Below, in pieces: positions 591-61,863 of a DNA stretch of 64,000 nt. The stretch covers positions 62,001 to 126,000 of the forward strand of contig JAGASH010000002.1 in the NCBI GenBank assembly GCA_017847835.1. Direction: 5' to 3'. Under the pieces are notes generated by a model that was given only the letters and a program-made list of their open reading frames with translations, searched no databases and was not told the DNA's origin. The translations under genes and the position numbers were made by a program. The first letter of the stretch is position 1. Each line of letters begins with the position of its first letter. Origin of the DNA: Oscillospiraceae bacterium (lineage in GTDB: Bacteria > Bacillota > Clostridia > Oscillospirales > Ruminococcaceae).

Positions 591-2075
591 ATGGAACAAC
601 AAGCAAAGCCCTCAGAGAACACACCGATAAGCCGTTCTCTGGAAGAAAATCTCGACAATCTGCTGAAATTCACGGACAATTCCTCGGACGTGATTATCAA
701 GAGGGGACTTGTCTGCGGGAATAAAATCGCCGTCATCACCTGCGAGGGAATGACTTCAACAGACACGCTCGCGCAGCTTGTTTACCCGAAGCTGAACCTT
801 GTCGAAAACGACAGGCTGCTGTCGCCCGACGCGCTTATGAACAGCTTTTTTGAGGTGTTTCTTATTGCCGCGGAACAGCTCGACATCAAAACTCTCGGCG
901 ACCTCACGCTGAAATTACAGTCAGGCTTTGCGATAATTCTCGTTGACGGCTGCGCGAGAGCGATTGCAATCGGCGTTCAGGGGTACAAGTCGCGCGGTAT
1001 CGACGAGCCGAGCTCCGAGCTGAACGTTCGCGGCTCGCGGGAAGGCTTTGTCGAGGTTATCAGGACAAATATGGCGCTTATCCGCCGAAGAATAAAGTCA
1101 CCGACGCTGGTTTTCGAGCTCTCGCCGTTCGGTGAACGCAGCAACACGGACATCTGCCTTTGCTACATCTCGGACAAGGTTTCGCCGAAATTACTCGAAA
1201 ACGTGAAGAAGCGCTTGAAATCGATAAAGCTGAACACAATCCTCGAAAGCGGATATGTGCAGCCGTATTTTGAAGGTGAAGGCGGCTGGTTCTTCTCGGA
1301 GTGCGGGACGTGCGAGCGTCCCGATGTTTTCGCGGCAAAGCTGTACGAAGGACGCGTCGGCATACTTGTGGACGGGACGCCGTTTGCGCTGGTTGTGCCG
1401 CATTTGTTCATCGAGAATTTTCAGACGCTCGACGACTACACGCAAAAGCCGTTTTACGCGTTTTTCATAAGAACCGTGCGGCTTGCCGCGTATCTGATAA
1501 CGCTTTTTCTGCCGGGATTTTACGTCGCTGTCGCCTCGTATAACCCCGAAATGCTGCCGTCGTCGCTTATCCTGAACCTTGCCGCAGCCGAGCAGACTGC
1601 GCCGTTTTCACTTATGGTGGAGTGCCTGTTCATTCACTTTATGTACGAAATTCTGCGCGAAGCGGGTATACGCCTGCCGCGTCCTATCGGTCACGCAATC
1701 GGCGTAGTCGGCGGACTTGTAATCGGCGATATCACGGTATCTGCGGGACTTGTCGGTGCGCCTATGGTGCTGATTGTGGCGCTGTCGGGGCTTTGCAGCT
1801 TTGTTGTCCCGAAGATGTACGAAAAGGTTGTCATTCTGCGGTTTGTGTATATCATCGCGGGAGGGGTTTTCGGACTGTACGGGCTGCTTCTTGCGGCGGG
1901 CGCTGTGATAATAAAAATGTGCTCGCTTTCAACCTACGGTGTGCCGTATATGGCGCCTATGTCGCCTTTTTCACCGAAGGCTTGCAGGGATTTGCTGGTG
2001 CGTGCAGATTGGAAGAAGATGTCGAAAACCGACGTGACAATTCAGTCGCTCAACGGCGCGCATATCAAAAGATGA
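591..2075 (+). CDS. Spore germination protein, GerA family A subunit (GerKA-like)
   Basis: A 494-residue protein with a large soluble N-terminal domain (about residues 30-270) followed by a block of hydrophobic helices from about 295 to 440 and a short charged tail. This is the layout of the A subunit of GerA-type germinant receptors in the spore inner membrane, which sense nutrients and start germination. A longer reading frame opens at 540, but the ATG at 591 is preceded by AAGGGAGAAC at proper spacing and is preferred. It heads a run of overlapping genes (46-codon ORF, B subunit, C subunit). The germinant cannot be deduced from sequence. Confidence 0.9.
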   Translation: MEQQAKPSENTPISRSLEENLDNLLKFTDNSSDVIIKRGLVCGNKIAVITCEGMTSTDTLAQLVYPKLNLVENDRLLSPDALMNSFFEVFLIAAEQLDIKTLGDLTLKLQSGFAIILVDGCARAIAIGVQGYKSRGIDEPSSELNVRGSREGFVEVIRTNMALIRRRIKSPTLVFELSPFGERSNTDICLCYISDKVSPKLLENVKKRLKSIKLNTILESGYVQPYFEGEGGWFFSECGTCERPDVFAAKLYEGRVGILVDGTPFALVVPHLFIENFQTLDDYTQKPFYAFFIRTVRLAAYLITLFLPGFYVAVASYNPEMLPSSLILNLAAAEQTAPFSLMVECLFIHFMYEILREAGIRLPRPIGHAIGVVGGLVIGDITVSAGLVGAPMVLIVALSGLCSFVVPKMYEKVVILRFVYIIAGGVFGLYGLLLAAGAVIIKMCSLSTYGVPYMAPMSPFSPKACRDLLVRADWKKMSKTDVTIQSLNGAHIKR

Positions 2076-3223: not shown

Positions 3224-4143
3224 AAAAGCTTTTTGCTGTTGCAGCCGTTTCAGCGCTGATTTTCACGGGCTGTGCCGACGCGACAGACCTCGGAAATCGC
3301 GCGATTATTCAGGCTGCCGCGATTGATTTTGACGACGGATACCGTGTTTCTGCGCTGCTTTTTTCAAGCGGGGGAGCGGGCTCGGACGTAATCGACGCTT
3401 CGCAGGAAAACGTGATTAAGGTTGTCGGCACGGGAAAAACGCTTTCCGAGGCTGTCGATAATCTCTCGCTTGTTGACGGAAAGCGGATTTATATGAGCGA
3501 AACAAAGCTGCTGGTGCTGGGTGACGGCTTTTCCGAGGAGAGCGTGACAGACGCGCTGAACACGCTTTACTATGATTTGCGGTGCAGTCTGAATATGCCC
3601 GTGTGCTGCGCGGAAAACGCGGAGTTCCTCACGGATTTGCAGTTCACCGAGGGGATAACGTCCGCAGAAAAGCCGCTTTCGATGATTGAAAACGCGCACG
3701 AGCTCGGCGTTTCCCCGAAAACCACGCTGCTGGATATTTTCGCGGATTTGTCCTCTGAGCGCACATCGCTGATACCGATGTTCAAGAAAACCGAAAACGG
3801 CCGCGGAATGACTTCTTCCGAGAACGGAGAAACTGCGGTTTTGTCGGGCTGTCGGGTGCTGGAAAACGGAAAACTCACGGGTACTTTTGACCAAAGGCAA
3901 ACCGTGAGCCTGCTTCTCAAAAGCAAAAAAACCGACCACATCGCGCTGAATTATGTCTTCAGAGGCGAGGAAAAAACCTGCGAGGCATACGCGATTAAAG
4001 TTCTTGACGAGGCAGACCGTTTCGGGCACTCGTGGAGCGTTCACGCAAAATTCCGCGGAAGAACGGGCGGCAAAATCCCCGACGACGAGCAGGAAGCTGC
4101 TTTGGAGGCACTTTTGAAAGCGGTTCGCGGGGTTGATTATTGA
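3220..4143 (+). CDS. Ger(x)C family spore germination lipoprotein (C subunit)
   Basis: A 307-residue protein with a lipoprotein signal (MKKLFAVAAVSALIFTGC) and the GerAC N-terminal pattern DLGNRAIIQAAAIDFDDGY. C subunits are membrane-anchored proteins needed for the function of GerA-type receptors. The start overlaps the B gene stop by four bases. At 307 residues it is shorter than many family members (about 370-400), so the C-terminal domain may be reduced. It is the last gene of the operon; a new promoter follows at 4157. Confidence 0.85.
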   Translation: MKKLFAVAAVSALIFTGCADATDLGNRAIIQAAAIDFDDGYRVSALLFSSGGAGSDVIDASQENVIKVVGTGKTLSEAVDNLSLVDGKRIYMSETKLLVLGDGFSEESVTDALNTLYYDLRCSLNMPVCCAENAEFLTDLQFTEGITSAEKPLSMIENAHELGVSPKTTLLDIFADLSSERTSLIPMFKKTENGRGMTSSENGETAVLSGCRVLENGKLTGTFDQRQTVSLLLKSKKTDHIALNYVFRGEEKTCEAYAIKVLDEADRFGHSWSVHAKFRGRTGGKIPDDEQEAALEALLKAVRGVDY

Positions 4144-7502: not shown

Positions 7503-7752
7503 GCAAAAATCGCCCTCCTGCCAAACGCAAGAGGGCGAAAAACCGCTGTACCACCTCAATTTACGGGAATCCCCGCCTTTGAACAGCTTTAACGGGCTTA
7601 CCCGTGCGGAACTACTCGCAAACGCTTTTGCACCGCCGCTCCGAGAGGTAATTCATCTTCGGCACCTGCTGTTTCACACCCGCCAACAGCTCTCTGAAAA
7701 GGATTTTCCGAAAACTACTTTGTTCCCGTCAACGCTTTGATATATTGAGATA
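7503..7752 (-). promoter_or_regulatory. T-box leader (tRNA-Tyr responsive)
   Basis: The minus strand carries the T-box core AGGTGGTACAGCGG (7543-7556). It is followed by a terminator stem CGCCCTC/GAGGGCG (7511-7537) with a U run, and preceded by a long Stem I region. In the specifier position, GAUGAAUUACCUC contains UAC (7648-7650), a Tyr codon, which agrees with downstream tyrS. Uncharged tRNA-Tyr should stabilise the antiterminator and allow transcription of the membrane-protein gene and tyrS. This T-box explains the roughly 300-base stretch without a gene. Confidence 0.93.
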
Positions 7753-59239: not shown

Positions 59240-59273
59240 TTTACTAAAAAGTTGATTGAAAGGATTTGGAAAT

Positions 59274-60842
59274 ATGTCAAAACCTGTATTATTGGTAGTA
59301 ATGGACGGCGTTGGCTTCTCGAAAACGGGACTTGGCGACGCTGTAACCGAGGCAAATACACCCACTCTGGACTGGCTGCTTGCAAACTGCCCGAACACGC
59401 GTCTTAAAGCGCACGGCGGCGCTGTCGGACTGCCTTCCGATGACGATATGGGCAACTCCGAGGTTGGACACAACGCGCTCGGCTGCGGACAGATTTATTC
59501 GCAGGGCGCAAAGCTCGTAAACGAGAGCATTGAGAGCGGCAAAATGTACGACTCTTCCGCGTGGAAGGAGCTTGTCGCAAACTGCGTTTCCAAGAACTCC
59601 ACGATGCACTTCATCGGTCTTTTGTCCGACGGTAACGTTCACTCGAACATCTCGCACCTGTTCAATATGCTCAAAAAGGCAAAGGCTGACGGCGTGAAAA
59701 AAGCGCGCGTTCACTGCTTGCTGGACGGTCGCGACGTTCCCGCAACTTCTGCTCCGATTTATATCGAGCAGCTCGAAAAGGTTCTCGCAGAGCTGAACGA
59801 CGACAATTTCAACGGCAAAATCGCTTCCGGCGGCGGCCGTATGAAGATTACAATGGACCGTTATCAGGCTGACTGGGCAATGGTTGAGCGCGGCTGGAAA
59901 ACCCACGTTAAGGGCGAGGGCAGACAGTTCACGTCGGCAGCAGAGGCTGTTGAAACGCTTCGCAATGAAACCGGCGCTATTGACCAGGACCTCCCCGCGT
60001 TCGTTATCGCTGAAAACGGCGAGCCTGTCGGCAAGATTGTAGACGGCGACAGCGTAATCCTCTTCAACTTCCGCGGTGACCGTGCAATTGAGCTTTCTAT
60101 GGCTTTCGACAACGACGAGTTCACTCAGTTTGAGCGCGGCGGCAAGCCCAACGTTTGCTATGCGGGTATGCTCGAATATGACGGCGATATGAAGCTCCCG
60201 AAGCGCTTCCTTGTAAACCCGCCCGAAATTCACGACACGCTTTCCGAGGTTCTTGTTGCGGCAAAGCTCAACCAGTACGCTGTTTCCGAAACGCAGAAGT
60301 ACGGTCACGTTACCTATTTCTGGAACGGCAACCGCAGCGGCAAGTTCTCCGAGGAGCTTGAAACATTCAAGGAAATTCCTTCGGATAACGTCAGCTTCGA
60401 CCAGCGCCCGTGGATGAAGAGCGCGGATATTGTCGATGATTTGATTGAGGCAATCAAGTCCAAGAAGTACGATTTCCTGCGCTGCAACTTCCCGAACGGC
60501 GATATGGTAGGTCACACGGGTTCGCTTCAGGCAACGATTATCGGTGTTGAAGCGGTTGATATCGGTCTTGCAAGACTGATGAAGGTTTGCGACGAGTACG
60601 GTGTGACGATGCTTATCACCGCTGACCACGGCAACGCAGACGAGATGCTTGAAAAGAACAAGAAGGGCGAGGTTCAGGTTCGCACGGCTCACTCGCTTAA
60701 CCCTGTTCCGTTCATCATCTACGACAAGGACGTGAAGTACACCATAAAGGACGGCGAGTACGGACTTTCAAACGTTGCTCCGACTGTTGTCAAGATGTTC
60801 GGCTTGACTGCTCCCGATTGCTGGCAGGAAAGTATGATTTAA
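59274..60842 (+). CDS. gpmI: 2,3-bisphosphoglycerate-independent phosphoglycerate mutase
   Basis: A 522-residue manganese enzyme interconverting 3- and 2-phosphoglycerate. VVMDGVGFSK, the phosphoserine region GNSEVGHNALGCG, HCLLDGRDV and the late metal site TADHGNADEM are present. The ATG at 59274 has AAAGGATTTGGAAAT upstream; the frame open from 59256 includes it and is rejected. Gapdh and enolase genes are not in this cluster. Confidence 0.97.
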   Translation: MSKPVLLVVMDGVGFSKTGLGDAVTEANTPTLDWLLANCPNTRLKAHGGAVGLPSDDDMGNSEVGHNALGCGQIYSQGAKLVNESIESGKMYDSSAWKELVANCVSKNSTMHFIGLLSDGNVHSNISHLFNMLKKAKADGVKKARVHCLLDGRDVPATSAPIYIEQLEKVLAELNDDNFNGKIASGGGRMKITMDRYQADWAMVERGWKTHVKGEGRQFTSAAEAVETLRNETGAIDQDLPAFVIAENGEPVGKIVDGDSVILFNFRGDRAIELSMAFDNDEFTQFERGGKPNVCYAGMLEYDGDMKLPKRFLVNPPEIHDTLSEVLVAAKLNQYAVSETQKYGHVTYFWNGNRSGKFSEELETFKEIPSDNVSFDQRPWMKSADIVDDLIEAIKSKKYDFLRCNFPNGDMVGHTGSLQATIIGVEAVDIGLARLMKVCDEYGVTMLITADHGNADEMLEKNKKGEVQVRTAHSLNPVPFIIYDKDVKYTIKDGEYGLSNVAPTVVKMFGLTAPDCWQESMI

Positions 60843-60843
60843 C

Positions 60844-60950
60844 ACAGTCTGACGATAAAGGCACATCTGCGTCGTCAACGGCATTTCGGCAGGCACAAAG
60901 CCTAGCCGAAATACCGTTTCCTAGCATCTGCACCTTTCTCGCCAGCCTGT
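60844..60950. repeat. 107-nt imperfect palindrome after gpmI
   Basis: The left arm (60844-60894) and the right arm (60900-60950) are imperfect reverse complements around GGCACAAAGCC at 60892-60902. Best-paired parts are CATTTCGGC-type (GCATTTCGGC / GCCGAAAT) and CATCTGC / GCATCTG. It could fold as one long hairpin on either strand. It may be a repetitive intergenic element or a non-coding RNA; no protein is encoded. Confidence 0.7.
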
Positions 60951-60969
60951 AAAATTGAGATAAAACGCG

Positions 60970-60998
60970 CGCTCCCGAGAGATTTCGGGAGCGTTTTT
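60970..60998. terminator. Terminator between gpmI and the radical SAM gene
   Basis: CGCTCCCGA (60970-60978) pairs with TCGGGAGCG (60985-60993), followed by TTTTTAT; partly usable from both sides. Confidence 0.82.
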
Positions 60999-61002
60999 AT
61001 AT

Positions 61003-61863
61003 TTATAATAAGGTTAGTTGCTCGGGCTCGTCAATCGTTTTCATAAACGTGAAGACCTCGTTCTGATTGCGGACAATTCCGTGTTTATCGCAGAATTCCG
61101 TGAAATACCGCCAAAGTTTGTCGATGTTCGGAGAGGGAATTTCATAGCTGTTCCCGTAGCGCTTCGAGTATTTTTCCCGCAATCCCGGAAAATGCCTGTC
61201 AAGAGCCGCGTAAAAATACTCGCGGTCACCGTTTCGGAGAGTCAAGCCCATTCCGAACGAAATTATTCCGTAAACGCCCGCTTCCGCGATTTTTTCAAGC
61301 AGCGCAGCGAGATTTTCCACGGTGTCGTTGATAAACGGCAGCAGCGGTGTGAGCCACACAACCGTCGGTATCCCGCGTTTTTTCATTTCACGCAGTACCT
61401 CGACGCGTCGTGACGTCACGCAGACATTCGGCTCTACAATGCGGCAAAGTTCGTCGTCGGCGGTCGTGAGCGTCATCTGAACCACGGCTTTTGCTTTCTC
61501 GTTGATTTGCGCGAGAAGGTCAATATCGCGCATAACCAAATCCGATTTCGTGAGCACAGCCGCGCCGAAATCGTACCTTTCAATTACTTCCAGACACCGT
61601 CGCGTTATCCGCAAATCCTTTTCAATCGGGATATACGGGTCGCACATCGCGCCCGTGCCTATCACGCAGCGCCGACGTTTTGATTTCAGAGCCGTTTCAA
61701 GCAATTCGGGCGCGTTTTGTTTGACCTCGATATCCTCGAAATCGTGCGGCATATTGTAGCAGTCGCTTCGCGAGTCGCAGTAAATGCACCCGTGCAGACA
61801 GCCGCGGTACACGTTTATGCCGTTTTTCGCGCTCAGAATACCCTTTGCGTTCACAAAATGCAT
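61003..61863 (-). CDS. SPL-family radical SAM protein
   Basis: A 286-residue radical S-adenosylmethionine enzyme with the cluster motif GCLHGCIYCDSRSDCYNMPH (CxxxCxxC), followed by IGTGAMCDPYIPIE and VLTKSDLVMRDIDLL, which are typical of the spore photoproduct lyase-related family (SplB-like/Rv2578c-like). True spore photoproduct lyases are longer (about 340) and have an extra conserved Cys; this one is more likely an uncharacterised relative. Single gene with its own promoter. The start ATG 61863 lacks a strong ribosome site (GTGAGAAA). Confidence 0.85.
   Translation of the reverse strand: MHFVNAKGILSAKNGINVYRGCLHGCIYCDSRSDCYNMPHDFEDIEVKQNAPELLETALKSKRRRCVIGTGAMCDPYIPIEKDLRITRRCLEVIERYDFGAAVLTKSDLVMRDIDLLAQINEKAKAVVQMTLTTADDELCRIVEPNVCVTSRRVEVLREMKKRGIPTVVWLTPLLPFINDTVENLAALLEKIAEAGVYGIISFGMGLTLRNGDREYFYAALDRHFPGLREKYSKRYGNSYEIPSPNIDKLWRYFTEFCDKHGIVRNQNEVFTFMKTIDEPEQLTLL

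Follow-up and report, generated by a model that had tools for sequence, protein, structure and literature searches.

MITEs are mostly described by their ends. The pneumococcal BOX repeat is a mobile element with terminal inverted repeats and a predicted fold if transcribed, in which the middle module boxB can be absent or multiple (PMC3049150). The intergenic repeats bcr1 to bcr18 are described for the Bacillus cereus group; bcr1–3 are MITE-like, bcr10 and bcr18 are predicted functional RNAs, and roughly half of the copies are detected in transcripts (PMC3446304, PMC2267715). REP elements are multi-copy extragenic palindromes of 20–40 bp with GTAG or CGTC tags (PMC3733652). Finally, in the relevant sections of PMC5678879, IS1272 targets inverted repeats and replaces them without target duplication, with duplication of the whole stem-loop drawn as a possibility (Fig 13, pathway b).

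We analysed a stretch of 64,000 nucleotides from an Oscillospiraceae bacterium (the window), in which a palindrome lies behind gpmI. This palindrome is very probably a MITE moved by an IS1182 transposase, and its one-strand centre is a likely RNA module found across differing MITEs. The element is thereby of a known kind, and the one-strand shared core has no match at gathering score in Rfam 15 and no counterpart in the literature searched. The covariance model built for it is applicable to any genome, and the fold offers a concrete structure to probe.

The palindrome behind gpmI and its repeat family

The initial annotation described an imperfect palindrome downstream of gpmI, and the inverted repeat was confirmed at 60844–60950; the element proper (CAGTCTG...CAGCCTG, 105 bp) covers 60845–60949, with positions 60844 and 60950 contributing one extra A-T pair outside it. 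The plus strand of 60844–60950 folds as RNA with −45.4 kcal/mol, compared to −23.8 ± 3.3 kcal/mol for dinucleotide shuffles (z −6.6, 0/200 as good), which rules out a chance hairpin. The apex GGCACAAAGCC occupies 60892–60902, and only 2 nt separate the gpmI stop codon (60840–60842) from the element. The features of the region are as follows, with R2 and R3 denoting the model of the centre alone and a broad model, respectively:

59274–60842, plus strand: gpmI (ATG at 59274; the mechanical open reading frame starts with TTG at 59256; gene name from the initial annotation)
60845–60949, no strand: palindromic MITE copy of 105 bp in the bare form, which lacks the 3′ tail and its third terminal repeat; ends set by the copy alignment and the empty site in L360
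60845–60861, plus strand: left terminal inverted repeat CAGTCTGACGATAAAGG, sharing its general pattern with the ends of L127 and L128, both IS1182-type elements
60933–60949, minus strand: right terminal inverted repeat CAGGCTGGCGAGAAAGG, of the same general pattern as the L127 and L128 ends
60854–60937, minus strand (the sense strand): conserved folded core, 86.9 bits with R2 and 70.5 bits with R3, the window copy itself being among the sequences used to build both
60918–60930, minus strand: internal loop 1, 5′ side CAGATGCTAGGAA, columns mostly invariant in 54 copies
60864–60877, minus strand: internal loop 1, 3′ side TGACGACGCAGATG, columns mostly invariant in 54 copies
60892–60902, minus strand: apical hairpin GGC-UUUGU-GCC, with one apical pair GC in 37/54 copies and CG in 17/54
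60969–60994, plus strand: terminator-like hairpin behind gpmI, outside the element (a similar one on the minus strand, 60993–60970)
61003–61863, minus strand: convergent gene, whose product resembles, by its motif, a radical-SAM protein

The hairpin at 60969–60994 bears out the annotated separation of palindrome and terminator. The palindrome was also correctly said to encode nothing, as the open reading frame listing contains none of at least 60 aa overlapping 60845–60949. A promoter scan of 60700–61100 gave no match inside the element and a single promoter-like match on the minus strand (61034–61005). Elsewhere in the window, a T-box leader is located at 7528–7741 on the minus strand (Rfam, 117 bits), and R3 has a weak match at 3953–4023 on the plus strand (13.9 bits, E 0.13), which is probably due to chance.

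BLAST with 60830–60960 gave 15 matches in the own genome including the query itself, the other 14 at 74–87% identity and several of them partial, and a covariance model search of the same genome returned the same 15 places. The family was present in 30/37 genomes of the genus (own included) and in 0/24 other genomes of the order, 61 genomes having been searched in all. The search of genome and relatives proposed in the initial annotation thus revealed a repeated family, and the suggestion of a MITE-like intergenic element was upheld: the element is short, lacks a protein gene and has many intergenic copies, and all 30 of the 61 genomes with matches belong to the genus. Near-identical copies with differing flanks were found in some relatives, which indicates recent mobility there. 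These mobile copies are mostly about 130 bp long and consist of the palindrome plus a tail ending in a third copy of the end. The family copies in L094, L095, L102, L107, L110 and L116 have extra hairpins inserted in the core (129–161 bp compared to 106 bp), which recall boxB modules. Carriage on plasmids or phages of the collections searched was rejected, as blastn of the window element against them gave no match.

The gpmI locus was surveyed in 23 genomes of the genus including the own genome, 21 of which had a gpmI match, and the R2 core was present there only in the own genome (L358) and in G018 (L361). The G018 core belongs to another subfamily and is placed directly behind a hairpin, and is for these reasons considered an independent insertion. 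An empty site was found in L360 (93% identical over the query), which reads TAACAGCAAAATTG, with the window reading TAACA, the element, then TAAAATTG; the GC of L360 has no counterpart in the window, and the window junction is not clean. The window copy shows no visible target duplication, and it also has no tail. L359 (93%) likewise lacks the element and has a diverged spacer. The window copy is therefore an insertion specific to its lineage, in the bare form of 105 bp. Of the two properties that the initial annotation had set against its own reading, uniqueness does not apply, the sequence being repeated in the genome, and lack of conservation in relatives holds for this particular insertion. 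Directly behind gpmI of G005 (L363), a tail-like piece without core was seen by eye between two TAATTT-like repeats, and may be what is left of an insertion that decayed there.

IS1182-type ends and target sites

A search for IS1182 transposases in 41 genomes of the genus gave matches in 16, with those in three genomes above the curated cut-off. Two of these loci are insertion sequences carrying the terminal repeats of the MITE family on both sides: L127 (1551 bp), with a protein scoring 379 bits with NF033551 against a cut-off of 270 and with transposase domains in Pfam, and L128 (1532 bp), scoring 325 bits. No such ends were found at the third locus above the cut-off, L129, and five fragmentary loci below it (L130, L131, L143, L144 and L155) each have at least one such end. 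The own genome has no IS1182 transposase above the cut-off and contains three fragments (best 79 bits), some with stops; the insertion sequences with the shared ends, L127 and L128, lie in other genomes of the genus. An IS1182 DDE transposase would have moved the MITE in trans. The core was not found in any of the eight IS1182-type loci tested, and is for this reason not considered part of the transposase element. Other small elements have IS1182-type ends and no core (L114 204–302, L121 193–289, L124 2910–3008, L109 2889–3009 and L099 189–513), and L109 lies between near-duplicate hairpins of about 36 bp.

A set of 45 elements, made up of 43 tailed MITE copies plus L127 and L128, was examined for direct repeats immediately adjoining the two ends; the copies came from few genomes and were partly picked for near-identity. 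Repeats with a score of ≥6 flanked 29/45 elements, compared to 0.7 expected when flanks of different copies were mixed, and those with a score of ≥10 flanked 16/45, compared to 0 expected; the remaining 16/45 elements had no direct repeat at a score of ≥6. Target duplication is thereby seen at the level of the family (29/45) and is lacking at the window copy. The repeat lengths are bimodal, with 13 of 6–8 bp and 16 of 16–34 bp, and all 16 long repeats hold a stem of 4–15 pairs according to a crude finder, many being terminator-like in look. At both insertion sequences the hairpins on the two sides are exact duplicates, of 34 bp at L127 and 21 bp at L128. On an ordinary DNA target the transposase may make a staggered cut of about 7 bp, and on an extruded hairpin the element may be joined at the two feet of the cruciform, which would duplicate the whole hairpin. 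In L077, L082, L111 and L119 the two copies of the duplicated target hairpin differ from each other, with a compensating pair change in L077, as though each still served as a terminator.

A one-strand core in differing shells

Alignment of 54 copies showed that the stems vary yet remain paired, and that CATCTGCGTCGTCA, the apex and TTCCTAGCATCTG change little. For the minus strand, RNAalifold gave 37 pairs on the MAFFT alignment of these copies, 27 of which have changes on both sides. Of all cells 96.6% pair, a percentage favoured by the derivation of the 37-pair structure from the same alignment, and covariation is 0.517, compared to 0.160 for shuffled and ≤0.082 for slid alignments. The two internal loops hardly vary among copies. 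The annotated pairing of the arms is sound, and their mismatches are less scattered than described, as a good part of them form internal loops conserved in other copies.

The mismatches differ between the strands. Over all pairs of the 54 copies, A.C on the plus strand, which is G.U on the minus strand, occurs 117 times and G.T 35 times, and this falls to 84:35 once the two most frequently mismatched pairs are left out. The helix adjoining the terminal repeats on their inner side has 47 A.C and 2 G.T on the plus strand, and the inner helices have 95 and 18 (25 and 5 in the 13 rows of the own genome alone); the terminal repeats show no strand asymmetry, with 22 A.C and 17 G.T.

By following weaker matches of our first model we reached another element of the own genome (three copies, L173–L175), as well as elements of other genera in which the arms differ and the centre aligns. 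As this model also scores antisense echoes of the palindrome at 40–53 bits, in the same range, such weak matches were judged by their loop letters. R2, built from 29 sequences (95.9% paired, covariation 0.625 compared to 0.193), gave no antisense matches in the loci of its 80-match set. At E ≤0.001 it matched 86/297 genomes of the bacterial family (43/126 genera), 38/391 genomes of the class (26/223 genera) and 15/398 genomes of the phylum (11/267 genera), where the three sets of genomes are not independent, the own genome is among them, and the E-values are rough. Most matches read have the general form AAGG(A/C)A - P2 - CGCAG - P3 - CAAG - P2′ - U(G/A)ACGnAG, and they mostly sit inside longer palindromes with differing arms, with L182 being doubtful. 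One genome contains five near-identical core copies with different flanks and TA at both ends, which, being unlike the ends of the window family, probably represent another transposon type. Since the core is shared by palindromic elements with differing ends, a single transposase does not explain it. Near-identical core-bearing elements in G471 (L393–L396) seem, by eye, to lie inside terminator-like hairpins, and L230 has a TPP riboswitch (1350–1454, minus strand) with a core match some 50 nt away, at 1501–1576.

R2 had no match in 12 non-Bacillota genomes (0/12, a set without a positive control). Of at least 80 named loci found with a loose sequence pattern, R2 accepts at least 62. Among the matches listed, the accepted loci are all labelled as uncultured Clostridia, Oscillospiraceae, Pygmaiobacter or Ruthenibacterium, and the 18 R2-negative loci comprise all 12 from outside Bacillota and six labelled Bacillota. 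A viral copy was rejected as well, the single pattern match in viral contigs (L408) having no R2 match.

In an alignment of 62 R2 matches, each of the 25 pairs shows two-sided changes in at least some rows; this alignment, like the 57-row alignment, was fitted to the model. Their sense strand has 87 G.U and 27 A.C (61 and 16 in the 49 rows outside the building of R2), with 65 and 11 in the outer stem and a reversed asymmetry, 1 and 13, in the apical helix. By row, 38 are richer in G.U and 13 in A.C, with 11 ties. A G.A is kept at one place in 60/62 rows, and the non-Watson-Crick place beside it holds C.A in 31 rows and A.G in 28.

The orientation towards neighbouring genes was classified at 118 sites using a simple gene caller trained on the window, giving 27 tandem sense, 32 tandem antisense, 32 convergent, 15 divergent and 12 incomplete. 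Of these sites, 76 are from the 80-match R2 set, leaving out L095 and the second matches in L089, L073 and L111, and 42 are from the 62-match R2 set, one of which (L204) is from the genus. Left out of the 62-match set were three further genus loci, a duplicate locus, second matches, loci near a contig end and weak or doubtful loci.

A folded RNA seems likelier than single-stranded DNA as the form in which the core is used; this preference rests on the frequent wobbles of one strand and on neighbouring purine mismatches in the loops, such as RNA is known to form. The core may act as a folded RNA module, acquired or kept by palindromic MITEs of different transposase types, and this RNA would probably bind a protein upon transcription of the sense strand. 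The lack of orientation bias over the 118 sites means that transcription does not favour the folded strand, and a part in the read-through mRNA of neighbouring genes was rejected on this ground. What is left is an RNA transcribed on its own or by chance, or single-stranded DNA in folded form. The small RNA suggested in the initial annotation is a possible candidate. The selected structure could instead be single-stranded DNA that folds in replication or transposition and is read by the transposase or a host protein, which we consider rather unlikely. The absence of gene-orientation bias agrees with such a DNA structure, the hairpin targets point to a part for folded DNA in this transposition, and DNA also tolerates G.T better than A.C. 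However, the core occurs in shells with different ends, one of them with TA at both ends, which makes a single transposase an unlikely reader, and it is missing from the eight IS1182-type loci tested; the wobble excess of the outer stem also looks RNA-like, without being decisive.

The core could also be a relic of shared ancestry in a plain MITE, without function, its stems having been kept by template-switch repair. Long palindromes are prone to such repair, which in imperfect palindromes can mimic stem covariation, and the copies in the own genome have diverged. Yet this repair should erase conserved internal loops, and the loops are among the best conserved parts across differing arms; a predominance of wobbles of one strand type, with copies in both orientations, is not readily explained by it either, and we regard the relic as improbable. 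A local regulatory feature of gpmI, be it an mRNA stabiliser, an attenuator or a small RNA gene, would fit the position immediately behind the stop codon. It is very improbable given that R2 finds the core behind gpmI in only one of the 20 other genomes of the genus with a gpmI match, by an independent insertion, and that the folded strand is antisense to gpmI, and the stabiliser role raised in the initial annotation finds no support. The REP identity raised there fares no better: a repeat of the REP/BIME type, mobilised by a RAYT (Y1) transposase, would equally be a repeated extragenic palindrome, but 105 bp instead of 20–40 bp, ends matching IS1182-type elements and the duplicated targets of the family reduce its probability to almost nothing. 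The folded RNA module carried by IS1182-mobilised and other MITEs hence remains our preferred reading.

Comparison with known RNA families and repeats

At the gathering threshold of Rfam 15, no family matched the core in the window, in 20 loci with other shells or in nine loci of the phylum scan; the only matches in the 20 and nine loci were the TPP riboswitch and a tRNA, outside the core. Permissive scans gave sub-threshold matches only, and a known Rfam family was thus rejected. Ribozyme motifs and the k-turn were only provisionally considered for the core. The literature searched, comprising titles and abstract openings with preprints not covered, contained no description of such a core, and the strings clostridi, covari and IS1182 are absent from the examined text of a MITE review (PMC10969869).

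The BOX copy examined (n = 1, L410, from MK448497.1) has on one strand a loosened ordered form of the core motif, obtained by freeing the first base, omitting the final three letters and limiting the gaps; this form occurs in 1/20000 shuffles of the copy. BOX had been taken up as a candidate via its PCR primer, the sequence of which is published, and this choice adds multiple testing. The loosened motif is present in only 18/62 accepted Clostridial cores and not in the window, and the full motif as first noted has no letter-for-letter match in BOX. R2 gave no match in place, its best score being 5 bits elsewhere in L410, and R3 aligned in the right register without significance (6.4 bits, E 0.25). 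No core was found in L409, a viral-contig match of the BOX primer, nor the boxC pattern in viral contigs, nor BOX in plasmids. BOX is therefore a candidate relative of the core and not an established member. We propose only tentatively that a structured RNA module extends throughout Bacillota, with BOX as a distant member, riding MITEs of several transposase types and serving the spread or persistence of its carrier; our confidence is lower because the test motif had been loosened. The core does offer a testable idea of what BOX repeats may hold at their centre.

BOX and the core-bearing MITEs are both mobile with terminal inverted repeats, and a fold is predicted for their transcripts (PMC3049150). 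The bcr repeats, described for the B. cereus group, are intergenic like the family described here (PMC3446304, PMC2267715). REP elements are likewise multi-copy extragenic palindromes, whereas our element is 105 bp long with IS1182-type ends (PMC3733652). The closest likeness in transposase family and in inverted-repeat targets is to IS1272 of Staphylococcus, of the IS1182 family, and IS1272L has a duplicated end resembling the third terminal repeat of the tailed MITE form (sections of PMC5678879). In those sections IS1272 replaces its inverted repeat without duplication, whereas here the hairpin is duplicated in 16/45 elements, with repeats of 6–8 bp in a further 13/45, and the duplicated hairpins beside IS1182-type elements fit the pathway that was only drawn there as possible.
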